A DNA stretch of 64,000 nt from Streptomyces sp. CB03234 (lineage in GTDB: Bacteria > Actinomycetota > Actinomycetes > Streptomycetales > Streptomycetaceae): NCBI RefSeq assembly GCF_001905885.1, contig NZ_LIYH01000002.1, positions 1,231,591-1,295,590 of the forward strand, written 5' to 3'. How positions within the stretch are numbered: position 1 is the stretch's first letter; each line of letters opens with the position of its first letter. Under the pieces are notes generated by a model that had not been told where the DNA came from, ran no database searches, and worked only from the letters and a program-made list of their open reading frames with translations. Positions 19,253 to 54,843 of this stretch are shown here, one piece after another. The position numbers were made by a program, and so were the translations under genes.

Positions 19253-19351
19253 CGCTTGCCGTCCGTGCTTGGCGGGCGGGCCTGCGACGCGGGCTGCGGC
19301 GCGGGCTCCGGCCCGGTGCTCGGGGCGGCGCCTGCCGGTGGGTGGGGGTGT

Positions 19352-19492
19352 GGCCCCTCCGGGCTCACCTCCTCGAGGCCGGCGGCCTTGGGTCTCGGCG
19401 GTAGGGAGCCCGTCCGACGCCTCCCCCAAGCTCTCGGCTTCGCTCGAGCAGGGGGGACCCCCATCCTCTGCGGGGGCGACCCTGCACGGCCA
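19352..19492 (+). repeat. Dispersed palindromic element, copy 1 (forward)
   Basis: This copy starts with GGCCCCTCCGGGCTCACC and ends with TGCGGGGGCGACCCTGCACG. The same end sequences occur at 19547 (inverted), 35587 (forward) and 53929 (inverted). The copy is longer than the others because of a nested insertion at 19420-19465. Similarity continues about 30 bp beyond the right end (CCCCGGTCGTACGCCGTC is shared with the copy at 35587). Confidence 0.85.
19420..19465. repeat. Nested short hairpin repeat inside element copy 1
   Basis: The segment begins CCTCCCCCAAGCTCTCGGC and ends GCAGGGGGGACCCCCATC, with CCCCC and GGGGG arms that can pair. It is absent from the copies at 35587 and 53929, where AGGGAGCC and the CTCTGCGGGGGC end are separated by a different short spacer. 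This type of short GC hairpin sequence is common in streptomycete intergenic regions; that statement is from general knowledge. Confidence 0.65.
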
Positions 19493-19546
19493 CACCCCGG
19501 TCGTACGCCGTCTGCGGGCCGGTGGTCTTACGAAGACGGCGAGGAG

Positions 19547-19647
19547 GGGCCGTGCAGGGTCGCCCCCGCAGCGGTTGGCGGCGGGATACGGCCACGTGAG
19601 TGCTCGGGCACCCCGCCGACCGCGAGGAGGTGAGCCCGGAGGGGCCC
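19547..19647 (-). repeat. Dispersed palindromic element, copy 2 (inverted)
   Basis: In reverse orientation this copy shares both ends with copy 1: GGCCGTGCAGGGTCGCCCCC at its left and GAGGAGGTGAGCCCGGAGGG at its right. Its middle is divergent. Copies 1 and 2 lie head to head about 55 bp apart and could form a large cruciform or mRNA hairpin. Confidence 0.8.
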
Positions 19648-19662
19648 CGACCTTGGCCCACC

Positions 19663-19813
19663 GGCCGCAGGCGACTTCGCCCGCGCGCCGCACGGCATCC
19701 CGCCCTGACCGGGCCCGCCGGCCGCAGGCGACTTCGCCCGCGCGCCGCACGGCACCCCGTCCCGACCGGGCCCGCGGGTTGCAGGCGACTTCGCCCGCGC
19801 GCCACACGGACAT
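19663..19813. repeat. 57-bp tandem repeat, about 2.7 units
   Basis: Units begin at 19663, 19720 and 19777 with GGCCGCAGGCGACTTCGCCC (the third has GGTTGCAGG). The period is exactly 57 bp, which is divisible by three, but no frame through it has a start with coding character. Spacing and identity do not fit a CRISPR array because there are no unique spacers. Confidence 0.85.
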
Positions 19814-19833
19814 GCACCCGGGCGTGGGTTCGG

Positions 19834-24062: not shown

Positions 24063-25255
24063 TGAACGACTCTTCCTGGGGGGCCCCGCCGAGAGGCGGT
24101 CCATGGGGTCCGCCCGACCAGGGGTACCACCCGGGGTTCGCTCCGGCAGCCCCGGCGGGTCCCGCCTACGACGGGCATGAGGCACAGCAGACTCGGCCCA
24201 TGCCCATCGTGCCCGACGTCCCCGCCGGTGGAGACACCGGCGGTGGCCAGGACGACCGCGACCGGGGGACCGCTCCGCTGAGCGGTCCCCCGTTCCGTGA
24301 CGAGACGCGGCAGCGGTGGCAGCCGCAGCCGCAGCCGCAGCAGCCGGAGAATCCGCAGAATCCGCAGGAGCCCATGCCCAGCTCGCCGTCGGGAGCGCCG
24401 CAGCCTCCGGAACAGCCCCGTCCGTCCGGCCCGCAGAAGAAGCGGGCCGGGCGGGACCTCAGGGCCGCCATAGGGGTCGGCGTCGCTCTCGGGACGGTGA
24501 TCGTCGCGTCGCTGTTCATCTGGAAGGCCGCGTTCGTCGGCGTGATAGCCGTCGCGGTCGTGGTCGGGCTGTGGGAACTGACCTCCCGCCTGGAGGAGCG
24601 CAAGTCCATCAAGGCCCCGCTCGTGCCGCTCGCCGTCGGCGGCGCGGCCATGGTCGTGGCCGGGTACGTGCGCGGGGCGGAGGGCGCCTGGGTCGCCATG
24701 GCGCTCACCGCGCTCGCGGTGCTGGTGTGGCGGATGACGGAGCCGCCCGAGGGCTACCTGAAGGACGTCACGGCCGGCGTCTTCGCCGCGTTCTACGTGC
24801 CGTTCCTGGCGACGTTCGTGGCGCTGATGCTCACCGCGGACGACGGCCCCTGGCGGGTGCTCACCTTCCTGCTCCTGACCGTGGTCAGCGACACCGGCGC
24901 GTACGCCGTCGGCTGGCGCTTCGGCAAGCACAAGCTCGCGCCGCGCATCAGCCCCGGCAAGACCCGTGAGGGGCTGCTGGGCGCGGTGGCGTTCGCCATG
25001 GCGGCGGGCGCGCTGTGCATGGAGTTCGCCATCGACGACGGCACCTGGTGGCAGGGCCTGCTTCTGGGCCTCGCCGTCGCGGCCAGCGCCACGCTGGGCG
25101 ACCTCGGCGAGTCGATGATCAAGCGGGACCTCGGCATCAAGGACATGGGCACGCTGCTGCCGGGTCATGGAGGCATCATGGACCGGCTGGATTCGCTGTT
25201 GCCGACAGCTCCGGTGGTGTGGTTGCTGCTGGTGGTCTTCGTCGGAACAGGCTGA
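24062..25255 (+). CDS. cdsA: Phosphatidate cytidylyltransferase
   Basis: CdsA makes CDP-diacylglycerol for phospholipid synthesis. The 397-residue protein has a cytoplasmic N-terminal extension of about 135 residues rich in Pro, Gln and Gly, then about eight membrane segments. It ends with the CDP-alcohol signature SMIKRDLGIKDMGTLLPGHG, followed by GIMDRLDS near the C-terminus. The start overlaps the frr stop by one base. The last 78 bp, including the stop, are repeated as a near-identical copy at 25302-25379, described separately. Confidence 0.95.
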   Translation: MNDSSWGAPPRGGPWGPPDQGYHPGFAPAAPAGPAYDGHEAQQTRPMPIVPDVPAGGDTGGGQDDRDRGTAPLSGPPFRDETRQRWQPQPQPQQPENPQNPQEPMPSSPSGAPQPPEQPRPSGPQKKRAGRDLRAAIGVGVALGTVIVASLFIWKAAFVGVIAVAVVVGLWELTSRLEERKSIKAPLVPLAVGGAAMVVAGYVRGAEGAWVAMALTALAVLVWRMTEPPEGYLKDVTAGVFAAFYVPFLATFVALMLTADDGPWRVLTFLLLTVVSDTGAYAVGWRFGKHKLAPRISPGKTREGLLGAVAFAMAAGALCMEFAIDDGTWWQGLLLGLAVAASATLGDLGESMIKRDLGIKDMGTLLPGHGGIMDRLDSLLPTAPVVWLLLVVFVGTG

Positions 25256-25301: not shown

Positions 25302-25379
25302 ATGGACCGGCTGGATTCGCTGTTGCCGACGGCTCCGGTGGTGTGGTTGCTGCTGGTGATGTTCGTCGGAACAGGCTGA
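25302..25379 (+). repeat. Duplicated 3' end of cdsA (78 bp)
   Basis: This segment, from ATGGACCGGCTGGATTCGCT to the TGA at 25377, matches 25178-25255 (the last 25 codons plus stop of cdsA) at all but 3 of 78 positions. Some upstream sequence is shared too (ACATGGGCACG at 25290 and in cdsA at 25143), with about 24 bp missing between it and the ATG. The copy lacks the catalytic signature and is a remnant, not a gene. Confidence 0.9.
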
Positions 25380-34851: not shown

Positions 34852-36180
34852 ATGATCGGGTGGAGCGGGACGAGGATCGTCTGGGCGGGGTCCGCGGGCG
34901 TCGCCGGTGCGCTCGCCGCGGTGTCGGACCTGGCCCCGCACCGGGTGTGGGGCGTGGCGGCGGCGCTCGGCTACGGGGCGGCGGCGATGCTCGCGGGTAG
35001 CCACCGCCGTGCGGCCGTCGGCGTCGCCCTGCTGGGGGCGGTGGCCGTGCCGCTGGTGCTGCTCGTCGCCACCGGCCGGGGCCAGCTGGAGGTGGCCGTC
35101 GTCGAACGGTCGGGCGCGCTGCTCACGGCGACCGGCGTCCCGTACGCCCGGGAGCCGGGCGGGCTCGCCGACTACAACCCTTACCTGCCGGGGATGGCGG
35201 TCCTCGGGGCGCTGCCGGGGGACCCGCGATGGTGGACGGGCGCGGTGTTCGTGGCGTCGGTGGCGGCGGTAGGGGCTTCGCCCCGGGTGGCCGGCTGGGT
35301 GGTGGCGTGCCCGCTGGTCGCCCTCCCGCTGGCCGTGGGCGGCGTCGACCTGCCCGTCGCCGGCCTCATGTGCCTGGGCCTCACACTCGCGGGGCGGGGC
35401 CGGGCGGGGCGCGCGGGGCTCGCCCTCGGCGCGGCGGCTGCGCTGAAGTGGACGGCGTGGCCGGCGGTGCTGGTGGCGTTGGCGCTGCTGGTGGCGGTTG
35501 GGCGGCGCCCTTGCCGGGTTGGGCTCGGTCGGTGGGGCGAGTGCGGGCACGCGGTGGCGGCGGTCACGGCCGGTGGGTGGTGGCGGGGCCCCTCCGGGCT
35601 CACTTCCTCGAGGCCGGCGGCCTTGGGTACGACAAAGGGAGCCCGCCCCTTGCCGCCAACCTCTGCGGGGGCGACCCTGCACGGCCCCGCCCCGGTCGTA
35701 CGCCGTCCGTCGGCCGGTGGGTGGCTCCGGCCCGTGCTGCGGTGCCTGGGTGCGGCCGCGGGGGTGGTGGGGGCGGTCAGTCTGCCGGTGCTGGTGAATC
35801 CCGGGGCTTTCTACCAGCACGTCGTCGCCTTTCCGCTCGGCCTGACCGGCACCGAGTCGCCCGCCGCCAGCCCCTTCCCGGGACGGCTGCTGGCCGCGTA
35901 CGTGCCCGGCGGCGCCGTTGTCGCGGGGGTGCTGCTGGGGGTGAGTGCCGTGTTGGTCGCCGTCTCGCTGGCTGTGCGGCCGCCCTCGACCGTGCGGGCG
36001 GCCGCCCGGCGGCTCGCGCTCGGGCTGACGCTCGCGATCGCGTTCATGCCCGCCTCCCGGTTCGGCTACCTCGTCATCCCGTTCGTCCTGCTCACCTGCC
36101 TCAGGGAGACCCCATGCACCGTACGCTCGTCGTCACCAACGACTTCCCGCCCCGGCAGGGCGGCATCGAGACGTTCGTGA
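34852..36180 (+). CDS. Polytopic membrane protein, GT87-like mannosyltransferase, with in-frame repeat insertion
   Basis: The 442-residue product is a multi-pass membrane protein resembling GT87 polyprenyl-phosphate-mannose-dependent transferases (for example PYAREPGGLADYNPYLPG and KWTAWPAVLVALALL, then LVNPGAFYQHVVAFPLG). About residues 239-287 are foreign in composition (GPSGLTSSRPAALGT and following) and are encoded by the dispersed repeat element, bounded by a perfect 14-bp direct repeat 144 bp apart. The frame is kept. Its 3' end overlaps the next gene by 67 nt, and the last 22 or so residues look non-native. Start is the ATG at 34852. It is likely to act with the downstream GT4 enzyme in glycan or glycolipid synthesis. 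Confidence 0.75.
   Translation: MIGWSGTRIVWAGSAGVAGALAAVSDLAPHRVWGVAAALGYGAAAMLAGSHRRAAVGVALLGAVAVPLVLLVATGRGQLEVAVVERSGALLTATGVPYAREPGGLADYNPYLPGMAVLGALPGDPRWWTGAVFVASVAAVGASPRVAGWVVACPLVALPLAVGGVDLPVAGLMCLGLTLAGRGRAGRAGLALGAAAALKWTAWPAVLVALALLVAVGRRPCRVGLGRWGECGHAVAAVTAGGWWRGPSGLTSSRPAALGTTKGARPLPPTSAGATLHGPAPVVRRPSAGGWLRPVLRCLGAAAGVVGAVSLPVLVNPGAFYQHVVAFPLGLTGTESPAASPFPGRLLAAYVPGGAVVAGVLLGVSAVLVAVSLAVRPPSTVRAAARRLALGLTLAIAFMPASRFGYLVIPFVLLTCLRETPCTVRSSSPTTSRPGRAASRRS
35567..35724 (+). repeat. Dispersed palindromic element, copy 3, inside a coding sequence
   Basis: The element core runs from GGCCCCTCCGGGCTCACTTC (35587) to CGGGGGCGACCCTGCACGGC (about 35685), and shared sequence continues through CCCCGGTCGTACGCCGTC. 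The 14-mer CGGCCGGTGGGTGG occurs at 35567-35580 and again at 35711-35724. The distance between the two repeats, 144 bp, equals 48 codons, so the host gene stays open. Confidence 0.9.
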
Positions 36181-37268
36181 AGGCCATGACGGACCGTTTC
36201 CCGCCCGGCGGGGTCGTCGTCCACACGTCGGCGGAGGCGGGCGGCGCCGTGCACGACGCGGGCCTGCCGTACCCGGTCGTCCGGGACCGCACCCGGATGC
36301 TGCTGCCCACGCCGCGCGTGACCGCCCGGGCCGTGGCGCTTGCCCGGGAGTACGGCTGCGACAGCGTGTGGTTCGGGGCCGCCGCCCCGCTCGGGCTGAT
36401 GGGCGGCCGGCTGCGGCGGGAGGCCGGGGTGCGGCGGCTGGTCGCCACGACGCACGGCCACGAGGTGTGGTGGGCCCGTACGCCCGGCGCCCGGGCCGTG
36501 TTCCGGCGCATAGGTGCGGGGGTGGACGTCGTCACGTACCTGGGCGCGAGCACCCGCGCGCCCATCGGCGCGGCGCTCGGGCCGGACGTGCGGATGGCGC
36601 GGCTCGTGCCCGGCGTGGACGCCGGTGTGTTCCGGCCCGGCCTCGATGCCGGGCCGGTGCGCCGCCGGTACGGTCTCGGTGACGCGCCCGTCGTCCTGTG
36701 CGCCGCCCGCCTGGTGGCCCGCAAGGGCCAGGACATCCTGATACGCGCCCTGCCAGCGGTGCGTGAGCGTGTCCCCGGCGTCCGGCTGCTGCTGGTGGGT
36801 TCGGGTCCGTACGAGAGCCGTCTGCGCCGCCTGACCGCCGAGCACGGGGTGACGGGCGCGGTGGTCTTCGCGGGTGGGCAGGCGCACGCCGAGCTGCCGT
36901 CCTTCTACGCCGCCGCCGACGTCTTCGCGATGCCGTGCAGAAGCCGGAAGCGCGGTCTGGAGGTGGAGGGCCTCGGCATCGTGTACCTGGAGGCGGCCGC
37001 GGCCGGCCTGCCGGCCCTCGTGGGCGACTCGGGCGGCGCGCCCGACGCCGTACGGGACGGTGAGACCGGCCATGTCGTCGACGGCCGGGATGCGGAGGCG
37101 GTCACCGAGCGGCTCGTTGAGCTGCTGCGGGACCGTCAGTTGGCGCGGGTCATGGGGGCGAAGGGGCGGAACTGGGTGCGTGAGGAGTGGAGCTGGGACC
37201 GTACGTACGACACGCTCCTCGGCCTCCTGGATGCCGGCGGCCGTTCGCTGTCATCGTGGGCCGGGTGA
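36114..37268 (+). CDS. GT4 family glycosyltransferase (PimB-like)
   Basis: The 384-residue GT-B fold enzyme has the N-terminal acceptor-domain motif DFPPRQGGIETFVK and the donor-domain motifs LVARKGQDILIRALP and EVEGLGIVYLEAAAAGLPAL (the E-x7-E site). It resembles PimB/MgtA-like mannosyltransferases that act on phosphatidylinositol mannosides. The exact acceptor is unknown. Start is the ATG at 36114, within the 3' end of the upstream membrane transferase gene. Its stop overlaps the start of the broken ybdK-like gene (GTGA). Confidence 0.88.
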   Translation: MHRTLVVTNDFPPRQGGIETFVKAMTDRFPPGGVVVHTSAEAGGAVHDAGLPYPVVRDRTRMLLPTPRVTARAVALAREYGCDSVWFGAAAPLGLMGGRLRREAGVRRLVATTHGHEVWWARTPGARAVFRRIGAGVDVVTYLGASTRAPIGAALGPDVRMARLVPGVDAGVFRPGLDAGPVRRRYGLGDAPVVLCAARLVARKGQDILIRALPAVRERVPGVRLLLVGSGPYESRLRRLTAEHGVTGAVVFAGGQAHAELPSFYAAADVFAMPCRSRKRGLEVEGLGIVYLEAAAAGLPALVGDSGGAPDAVRDGETGHVVDGRDAEAVTERLVELLRDRQLARVMGAKGRNWVREEWSWDRTYDTLLGLLDAGGRSLSSWAG

Positions 37269-53891: not shown

Positions 53892-53928
53892 CCCCGGGCT
53901 GCCCGCAGACGGCCACCGGCCGGGGTGG

Positions 53929-54029
53929 GGCCGTGCAGGGTCGCCCCCGCAGAGGCCGGCGGCCTCGTTGCGGCTCCCAACCCTCGTACCCAAGGCCGCC
54001 GGCCTCGAGGAGGTGAGCCCGGAGGGGCC
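53929..54029 (-). repeat. Dispersed palindromic element, copy 4 (inverted)
   Basis: The copy runs from GGCCGTGCAGGGTCGCCCCC to GGTGAGCCCGGAGGGGCC. Internal arms GAGGCCGGCGGCC (53952-53964) and GGCCGCCGGCCTC (53994-54006) form a perfect 13-bp inverted repeat, so this copy can fold into a hairpin. The reverse complement aligns with copies 1 and 3 across both ends and the GGGAGCC core. Confidence 0.85.
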
Positions 54030-54130
54030 ACGCCCCCCACCCCCCGGCAGGCCGCCGACCCGCACCGCACCGGGGCGAACCGGGAAGGGGCACCGCCCCG
54101 GGTGGAACCGCCGAAAGGGAACCGCCCCGG

Positions 54131-54285
54131 TCCCGTTGTGCCCACCCGTCCCGCCCTGCGGGACGGCTGCCCACAACGGGGGACCCCCAGCGGGACGGCT
54201 GCCCACAACGGGGGGCGGCGGGCCCGGCGGGACGGCTGTCCACGACGGGGAGTGGGCCGTGCGGGACGGCTGCCCACGACGGGGG
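54131..54285. repeat. Short GGGACGGCTGCCCACAACGG repeats (four direct, one inverted)
   Basis: Direct copies begin near 54158, 54190, 54227 and 54261, two reading CACAACGGGG and two CACGACGGGG. A partial inverted copy (CCCGTTGTGCCCACCCGTCC) starts near 54132. They can pair with each other and lie between the DUF4190 gene and the 3' end of the NADAR gene. Similar REP-like sequences are widespread in streptomycetes. Confidence 0.8.
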
Positions 54286-54843
54286 TCAGCCGACCGAGGT
54301 CGCCCGCAGCTTCGCCCGTGCCTGCATCAGGGCGAAGCCCAGGAGGTTCAGGCCCCGCCAGCGGGCCGGGTCGTGGGCGCGCTCGTCGTCGGCGGCGAGG
54401 CCGATGCCCCAGACGCGGTCCATGGGGCTCGCCTCCACCAGCACGCGGTCGCCCGTCGACAGCAGGAACGCCCGCAGCTCCGGGTCCGCCGCGAACTTGT
54501 GCTCGCTGCCCGCCACCACGATGCCGAACCGCTCCCGCTTCCATATCGTCTCGTCGAAGCCGCGCACCAGCCGGCCCGCCTTCTTCGCGAGCGCCGGGTT
54601 CGGCGCCTCGATGGCCTGGCGCTCGGCGTCCGCGTCGCCGAAGAGCCGGGCCTTGGCCGCCATCATCCAGTGCTCCGCCGTCGCGTACTCCACGCCGTCG
54701 ACCGTGAACGGCGACGGCCACCACTGGCTCAGGCAGCTCGCCCCGATCGTCCCGTCCCGCCTCGGCGTGTGCCCCCAGAAGTGCAGAAACTTCACTCGCT
54801 CACCCCTGCTGACCTGCTCGATCAGCTCGTGGATCTTCTCCAT
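54286..54843 (-). CDS. NADAR family protein (YbiA-like)
   Basis: The 185-residue product is a NADAR-domain (DUF1768) protein with the core sequence LSQWWPSPFTVDGVEYATAEHWMMAAKA, then VVAGSEHKFAADPELRAFLLSTG and MDRVWGIGLAADD. NADAR proteins are ADP-ribose/riboflavin-intermediate hydrolases; some remove ADP-ribose from DNA in toxin systems. The cellular role here is unknown and no DarT-like partner adjoins it. Start is the ATG at 54843. Its 3' end abuts the short repeat array. Confidence 0.85.
   Translation of the reverse strand: MEKIHELIEQVSRGERVKFLHFWGHTPRRDGTIGASCLSQWWPSPFTVDGVEYATAEHWMMAAKARLFGDADAERQAIEAPNPALAKKAGRLVRGFDETIWKRERFGIVVAGSEHKFAADPELRAFLLSTGDRVLVEASPMDRVWGIGLAADDERAHDPARWRGLNLLGFALMQARAKLRATSVG

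Follow-up and report, generated by a model that had tools for sequence, protein, structure and literature searches.

A dispersed palindromic repeat of Streptomyces with a copy in frame inside a GT87-like glycosyltransferase gene

The GT87-like gene and its insert

In a 64,000-nt stretch of the Streptomyces sp. CB03234 genome (the window), a membrane glycosyltransferase gene holds a copy of a dispersed repeat family. Features discussed here are listed with their window coordinates and strand; G209 and G250 denote two Streptomyces relatives of CB03234, G250 being Streptomyces sp. WAC05374.

34852..36180, + strand: ORF for a GT87-like (GT-C fold) membrane glycosyltransferase of 442 aa with the element in frame (basis: ORF, orthologue L085 over the Pfam GT87 cut-off, AlphaFold, structure search)
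35506..35727, + strand: insert, residues 219-292, where 60 of 68 orthologous ORFs have at most 10 residues (orthologue alignment)
35556..35724, + strand: repeat-family copy as bounded by a profile from 42 other CB03234 copies (E 1.3e-48)
35567..35580, + strand: left copy of the 14-bp direct repeat CGGCCGGTGGGTGG, at the family 5' end
35580..35693, + strand: palindrome predicted to fold as a long, imperfect hairpin; the in-gene copy has 32 of the 33 consensus pairs
35711..35724, + strand: right copy of the 14-bp direct repeat CGGCCGGTGGGTGG, at the family 3' end
36114..37268, + strand: next gene downstream, for a GT4-type glycosyltransferase; the final 67 nt of the GT87 ORF overlap it
19345..19525, + strand: intergenic copy, type a, with an internal 42-nt hairpin-forming repeat at 19421-19462
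19540..19652, - strand: intergenic copy, type b, tail-to-tail partner of the copy at 19345..19525
53901..54036, - strand: intergenic copy, common to G209 and not found at this site in G250

The host ORF is stop-free throughout. Against the Pfam GT87 model (PF09594, cut-off 25 bits) its product scores 11.4 bits, the WAC05374 and G209 proteins 15.8 and 21.3, and the orthologues L101 and L085 24.3 and 35.4, so that L085 passes. AlphaFold models the window protein with a mean pLDDT of 84.4 and a pTM of 0.82; pLDDT is at least 90 at 306 of 442 residues (309 of 526 in the G209 protein). The chains nearest to the model in Foldseek are of GT-C type: GPI transamidase chain U (which we take to be PIG-U), a GPI mannosyltransferase, ArnT, ALG3 and PimE (presumably a GT87 enzyme). 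Their probabilities are 0.97-1, yet their E-values are 0.02-0.5 and none reaches 0.001. The likeness to GT87 and other GT-C enzymes thus lies in the Pfam GT87 domain of L085 and the type of the structural matches, weak as these are, whereas the window protein differs in its in-frame element and its score under the Pfam cut-off.

The end of the ORF (36100-36180) enters the next gene, which starts at 36114, out of frame. This overrun of the next-gene boundary is common to CB03234, WAC05374 and G209, and the ancestral GT87 stop may therefore have been lost in this group; an ORF end inside the next gene could hint at relaxed C-terminal constraint.

Compared with its orthologues, the window protein has about 72-74 extra codons (35506-35727; 74 residues between positions 218 and 293), and the 48 inserted residues of the initial annotation are to be corrected to this figure. 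Its claim of a repeat copy in frame within a membrane glycosyltransferase gene is borne out by the open ORF and by the family profile, which was trained without the in-gene copy. The left ~50 nt of the insert (35506-35555) are GC-rich, lie outside the profile match and align loosely to the corresponding loop of WAC05374. As the annotation also held, the insert falls between membrane segments: in the AlphaFold model it sits between helices 200-218 and 292-309, with 10-residue pLDDT means of 40-56 over residues 221-280 and 75 over 281-290, and is thus predicted to be a disordered loop joining the two helices.

Mean K+R counts per loop, which take in three flanking residues, are 2.8 for the N-terminus, 0.04 for 25-27, 2.0 for 48-51, 1.5 for 141-143, 0.0 for 163-166, 2.2 for 182-184 and 3.2 for the insert loop (median length 7); for loops past the insert, the values (0.9, 0.3, 1.6, 1.0, 1.0) give a less distinct pattern. 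By the positive-inside rule, this pattern suggests that the insert loop probably faces the cytoplasm.

Exact copies of the 14-mer CGGCCGGTGGGTGG start at 35567 and 35711, 144 bp apart as originally noted, and the window has no other on either strand. In the family as a whole, GCCGGTGG-type sequence is the consensus at both ends, in direct orientation. Of 55 CB03234 copies, 41 have a recognisable motif at the 5' end, 21 have one at the 3' end and 15 have it at both; in relatives, the corresponding counts are 61, 24 and 23 of 75 copies. Two origins had been offered for the direct repeat, a target duplication or the element's own ends. Given this consensus, the repeat probably represents the element's own ends. 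We did not adopt it as a clear target duplication, as it resembles the family's end motif, and across a 104-kb syntenic stretch filled and empty sites are too divergent to reveal a target-site duplication. The hairpin arms are inverted repeats inside these direct ends.

Positions 35509-35727 are stop-free in all three forward frames. We rejected this as a sign of selection on the peptide: in copies of the in-gene extent, 81% of forward frames are open in CB03234 and 60% in G209/G250 (null fractions 0.81 and 0.60), and for the longer G209-type module 27-28% are open (0.27-0.28). More telling are an insert length divisible by three and normal constraint in the downstream half. Pairwise dN/dS, calculated for 21 of 48 aligned sequences, is 0.35 (window-WAC05374), 0.34 (window-G209) and 0.43 (WAC05374-G209) over residues 320-414, where all pairs listed span 0.13-0.46; with a cut at residue 300 it is 0.39-0.47 downstream versus 0.21-0.25 for the N part. 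Being pairwise, these ratios take in time before the insertion and are not proof of constraint since then. Invariant columns in the 48 sequences, element-bearing proteins included, lie on both sides of the insert. Constraint in the downstream half is about as usual and resembles that in insert-free relatives, as expected if translation passes through the insert; we infer that it actually does.

The repeat family and its hairpin

The window holds four family copies, at 19345-19525 (+), 19540-19652 (-), 35567-35724 (+) and 53901-54036 (-). All copy numbers per genome are minimum values, and weak copies outside CB03234 may have escaped detection. In CB03234, blastn gave at least 49 matches (40 of 223 candidate places scored). 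At least 40 are strong, namely the query itself plus 39 further places with 80-91% identity and an E-value of at most 3e-32. With a sequence-only model trained on 26 copies, there were at least 78 matches in CB03234 (150 of 19263 candidates scored), at least 71 in G209 and at least 22 in G250. At E 1e-6 the core was matched in at least 6 of 295 Streptomyces genomes (two candidates scored per genome), namely CB03234, G209 and G250 and, more weakly (72-78%), G157, G284 and G293. Among ten genomes tried with the sequence model, G157 had at least three matches and G284 at least five; the other eight, G293 included, had none, and neither did two further genomes with orthologues of the GT87 gene. 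On sequence comparison, the family looks clade-restricted. Plasmid and phage collections held no element match at E 1e-5, and an Rfam search of 35400-35900 up to E 10 returned two weak matches only, outside the element and below the gathering score.

Genomic context was assigned at 134 loci in three genomes: 59 are in convergent, 70 in tandem and 3 in divergent gaps, and 2 are intragenic. By genome these are 30, 26, 3 and 1 of 60 loci in CB03234, 26, 32, 0 and 1 of 59 in G209, and 3, 12, 0 and 0 of 15 in G250; for comparison, neighbouring gene pairs in the window are convergent in 6 cases, tandem in 53 and divergent in 5. The loci represent 60 of 78 model matches in CB03234 and 59 of 71 in G209, the rest being pair partners or unlisted matches, and 17 stretches in G250, two without a match. 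Contexts come from a simple codon-usage gene caller trained on the window, by which a frame-breaking copy would count as intergenic. Both intragenic loci are the same GT87 loop, in CB03234 and G209. Two further G209 loci considered as in-frame cases, L222 and L236, have the same coding frame on both sides, but were rejected because a stop in that frame lies before or in the element.

Copies avoid divergent gaps; their usual place is 3' of genes. Some copies form inverted pairs, mostly tail to tail; at tandem positions there is no orientation bias (32 same, 25 opposite, p 0.43). Together with the covariation described below, the gene-end position suggests that intergenic copies may act as 3'-end RNA hairpins in processing, stabilisation or termination. 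In S. clavuligerus, 3'-end stem-loops are described as crucial for termination and degradation (PMC8269248).

The core palindrome spans 114 nt with 33 consensus pairs. Given an alignment of 46 copies, RNAalifold failed to recover most of the hairpin; given 26 copies, it folds the core as one long stem with changes on both sides in 4 of 37 pairs and a small covariation term (-0.35 of -52.67 kcal/mol). The 33-pair structure is hand-adapted from the RNAalifold fold, with 31 of the 37 pairs kept, 6 dropped (inner loop, small outer stem) and pairs 6-119 and 8-117 added, which fail in 60 and 63 of 104 sequences. These 104 were taken from 109 element references, leaving out L012:1331-1440, L258, L260, L262 and window:19344-19504. 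The structure is formed in 93.8% of cells, versus 46.9-58.8% when slid and 91.3% when shuffled. Cells with changes on both sides number 92 versus 29.6 in shuffles (0 of 500 as high), a count of copies rather than events, in which copies of one event enter many times. The covariation score is 0.075, versus 0.031 for shuffles and 0.051 for the best slide. Pair 34-91 is G-C in 48 copies, A-U in 45 and C-G in 10; pair 35-90 is G-C in 90 and C-G in 12, pair 26-101 C-G in 96 and U-A in 5, and pair 5-120 G-C in 78 and C-G in 9. Other counts speak against the hairpin: pairs with a double change are as numerous as in shuffles (6 versus 5.3), and further pair types are rarer (16 versus 19.9).

Minimum-energy folds beat the 33-pair hairpin by 12 kcal/mol in the CB03234 in-gene copy, 26 in the G209 in-gene copy and ~20 on average, and single-sequence fold stability is not unusual (z -1.1 for RNA, -1.6 for DNA). 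Single copies favour other folds; the case for the hairpin is one of covariation, from which the family core is predicted to be able to adopt a long, imperfect stem with compensatory base changes. Matching changes could alternatively arise from template-switch repair of palindromes. Of the 33 pairs, 32 are formed in the CB03234 in-gene copy and 31 in that of G209, the mean of the 104 copies being 30.9.

In the syntenic stretch, one copy is present in all three species, three are common to CB03234 and G209 and were not found in G250, two occur in CB03234 alone and one in G209 alone; a further copy common to CB03234 and G209 lies beyond the compared G250 stretch. The two sides of stem pair 34-91 are A in 38 and T in 37 of 45 CB03234 copies (most others C-G), and G and C in 47 of 48 G209 copies. 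Similarity was ranked among copies with at least 78% identity and more than 110 aligned bases, duplicates removed (41 CB03234, 43 G209 and 11 G250 copies). At four orthologous intergenic sites the partners rank 2, 12, 24 and 19 of 43, a fifth same-orientation pair (CB03234 19345) being lost to the filter; copies at orthologous sites are little or no better matched than random pairs. That species-specific bases are shared by nearly all copies, even at orthologous sites, is a sign of concerted evolution or fast turnover.

Other repeats lie in or near family copies. The 42-nt hairpin-forming repeat CTCCCCCAAGCTCTCGGCTTCGCTCGAGCAGGGGGGACCCCC (19421-19462), nested in the copy at 19345-19525, is also present in the G209 GT87 insert and, by eye and in the other orientation, in a G250 copy. 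A second dispersed repeat at 54158-54295, four units 32-37 nt apart around GCGGGACGGCTGCCCACAACGGGG, adjoins the copy at 53901, and three units similar to it lie in the G209 GT87 insert. Directly beside the inverted element pair, a 57-nt unit forms three tandem repeats (19655-19825). Elsewhere in the window, a 78-nt stretch starting ATGGACCGGCTGGATTCG is duplicated (25178-25255 and 25302-25379; 96% identity, starts 124 nt apart), and both copies of it have coding potential for a hydrophobic peptide of 25 residues. In the intergenic family copies, the conserved core contains CTCACCTCCTC, at 19364-19374 (+), 19624-19634 and 54007-54017; its reverse complement, GAGGAGGTGAG, resembles a strong ribosome-binding sequence. 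In the in-gene copy, CTCACTTCCTC stands in its place at 35599.

The GT87 loop in related species

Over all 68 orthologous ORFs, including 4 identical duplicates, the loop has at most 10 residues in 60; in the other eight it has 156 (G209), 48 (WAC05374), 36 (L038), 23 (L088 and L100) and, in three, 12. A first alignment of 47 of the 68 gave at most 10 loop residues in 42, 38 of these with one residue. Both counts are quoted from alignments, as a tblastn-based count had artefact rows (L057, L058, L100, L131, L132). The in-frame element is absent from the great majority of orthologues, in keeping with its annotation as an insertion, and we infer that it arose by insertion rather than by loss elsewhere.

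In G209, the same loop carries a 564-nt in-frame insert, a multiple of three that leaves the gene frame open. Its family copy (81% to consensus, E 9e-32), called inside the gene by the same gene caller as used for CB03234, lies in the opposite orientation to the CB03234 copy. The insert also holds a second, 43-nt copy of the element's 3' part, the 42-nt repeat of window 19421 (less the first base) and another repeat, GCGGGACGAYTGCCCACAACG, in three units. In the AlphaFold model of the G209 protein, pLDDT means are 33-56 across residues 221-370. The WAC05374 protein is 84% identical to the window protein over residues 1-204 and has a glycine-rich loop of 48 residues, in which the family profile found no match up to E 10, though the WAC05374 genome carries the family. 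With this loop also expanded, WAC05374 is no sure guide to the ancestral loop. The reversed element in G209 and the glycine-rich loop in a third species speak for a loop tolerant of inserts in general.

Identity is 90.8% between CB03234 and G250 and 89.5% between CB03234 and G209. The two GT87-loop copies are 74.5% identical, rank 39 of 43 when the in-gene copy is compared with G209 copies, and each bears its own species' bases at stem pair 34-91. Opposite orientation, low similarity and species-specific bases are best fitted by two insertions, one in CB03234 and one in G209.

Known repeat systems and the origin of the insert

A position 3' of genes and rarity between divergent genes are typical of REPs. 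The Streptomyces family resembles REP/BIME elements in these respects and in consisting of extragenic hairpins in many copies, some in inverted pairs. Its conserved unit of about 120-170 nt is much longer than the 14-40 nt of an E. coli REP unit (PMC12306157, a REP survey in whose main text the word Streptomyces is absent). A Y1_Tnp (RAYT-type, PF01797) gene was found in none of the three genomes searched (CB03234, G209, G250; the control was positive in 5 of 14 known genomes), and a RAYT-driven REP was rejected on this ground. Genomes with REPs yet without a tnpAREP gene are mentioned in PMC6006769.

The initial annotation drew a parallel with Rickettsia palindromic elements (RPEs). These are 105-146 bp long, palindromic and found both between genes and in frame inside protein genes, in 19 reading frames, and the residues they add are tolerated, as in the gmk example (PMC2229807); in R. 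conorii, 44 RPE integrations in genes are described (PMC10969869). The parallel holds for the palindrome (32 of 33 pairs), the position between genes and the in-frame case in CB03234 and G209. It does not extend to a generally protein-coding habit: RPEs occur in many genes, whereas the Streptomyces family occupies one loop of one gene among 134 loci. The family is also GC-rich, and its likeness to RPEs is one of description.

ERIC/RU-1, YPAL/RU-2, Correia/NEMIS and QMITE are hairpin repeats of 100-200 bp, mostly intergenic and in some cases fused in frame (PMC2229807, PMC5896051). The Streptomyces family is a hairpin repeat of similar size, mostly intergenic with one loop in frame, but appears to differ from these MITE-like repeats in that its consensus ends are direct GCCGGTGG-type repeats; no inverted repeat was noticed at the outermost ends. 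YPAL, with internal inverted repeats and not A+T-rich (PMC2229807), is like it in both traits. In-frame fusion of small palindromic repeats is known from Rickettsia, enterobacteria, Neisseria and Coxiella (PMC2229807, PMC10969869, PMC5896051); titles and abstract openings in the open-access literature yielded no description of the Streptomyces family or of an in-frame repeat insertion in Streptomyces. The Streptomyces element works like RPEs, yet it probably represents a family of its own that is REP/BIME-like, extragenic outside the GT87 loop and without a RAYT gene found in the three genomes.

Our main reading (probability about 0.86) is that a copy of a dispersed, palindromic family of about 145-170 nt, found in a small group of Streptomyces, landed in frame in the GT87 loop and is read through, the enzyme being otherwise under purifying selection. 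The likeliest origin is an event of transposition or recombination type that brought an extragenic palindromic repeat into a short cytosolic loop; together with a little adjoining GC-rich DNA, one copy would have entered between two GT-C transmembrane helices. Because its length is a multiple of three, it has no in-frame stop and its loop is probably cytoplasmic, away from the presumed extracytoplasmic active site, translation would run through it and add a disordered, basic loop of about 73 residues. The remaining enzyme would have been kept under ordinary purifying selection, and the insert would have survived through an intact frame and a loop free to grow.

Three other accounts of the open frame all appear improbable. 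A decaying pseudogene, with the open frame a by-product of GC-rich DNA, would accord with an insert open in three forward frames where 81% (CB03234) or 60% (G209/G250) are open elsewhere, with an ORF end displaced into the next gene, and with dN/dS that takes in pre-insertion time; we nevertheless consider it very unlikely, since both inserts are multiples of three, G209-type module frames are open in only 27-28%, dN/dS past the insert (0.34-0.43) falls inside the span of all pairs listed, and columns invariant in 48 sequences flank the insert on both sides. Hardly more credible, and if anything less so, is a split gene in which the hairpin halts transcription or translation, so that the C-terminal half is either produced on its own or missing. 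REP-type hairpins between genes can attenuate expression, and a palindrome inside a coding region could do the same, but in two species whose inserts differ the frame runs on unbroken, and the helices of both halves are modelled confidently as one fold. The insert might instead be a selected feature, its basic cytoplasmic loop or an mRNA hairpin regulating the enzyme. For this speak the same loop struck in two species and expanded in a third, and in-gene copies that retain 32 and 31 of 33 hairpin pairs; against it, the elements are read on opposite strands and give unrelated peptides, both loops are predicted to be disordered, and the 104 copies as a whole retain pairs to a similar degree (mean 30.9), so that retention may reflect recency. 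We regard it as improbable, though less so than the other two.

How often the loop was entered is a matter on which we are more tentative. At a little under even odds, the GT87 loop would be a recurrent landing site hit by two independent, opposite insertions of a new RAYT-less family whose hairpin is kept by compensation and whose copies are homogenised per species. A single ancestral insertion before the CB03234/G209 split, followed by inversion or replacement and by loss from WAC05374 leaving a GC-rich remnant, is also a serious possibility, though on balance we doubt it. With only 2 of 134 loci intragenic and both in the same loop, independent hits are unlikely unless the target is preferred. 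G250 is moreover slightly closer to CB03234 (90.8%) than G209 is (89.5%), and it lacks three copies common to CB03234 and G209 in the compared stretch, so that loss in G250 is common. Set against a single insertion are the opposite orientations, the low identity of the copies (74.5%, rank 39 of 43) with each species' own bases at pair 34-91, the larger composite nature of the G209 insert with its other repeats, and the WAC05374 loop without a family-profile match up to E 10. If the loop is indeed a recurrent landing site, one element has given rise to two unrelated peptides.

That selfish non-coding DNA can become protein by way of in-frame palindromic repeats is known, and the GT87 gene offers a case in a GC-rich actinobacterium. 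The case has an inbuilt control, as three close species have a forward, a reversed and no recognisable element in the same loop, alongside dozens of insert-free orthologues; insert tolerance and the effect of element orientation or peptide thereby become directly testable in the GT87 gene. The family itself, with its hairpin covariation, copies alike across each species and no RAYT found, raises the question of how repeats spread and stay alike in Streptomyces.
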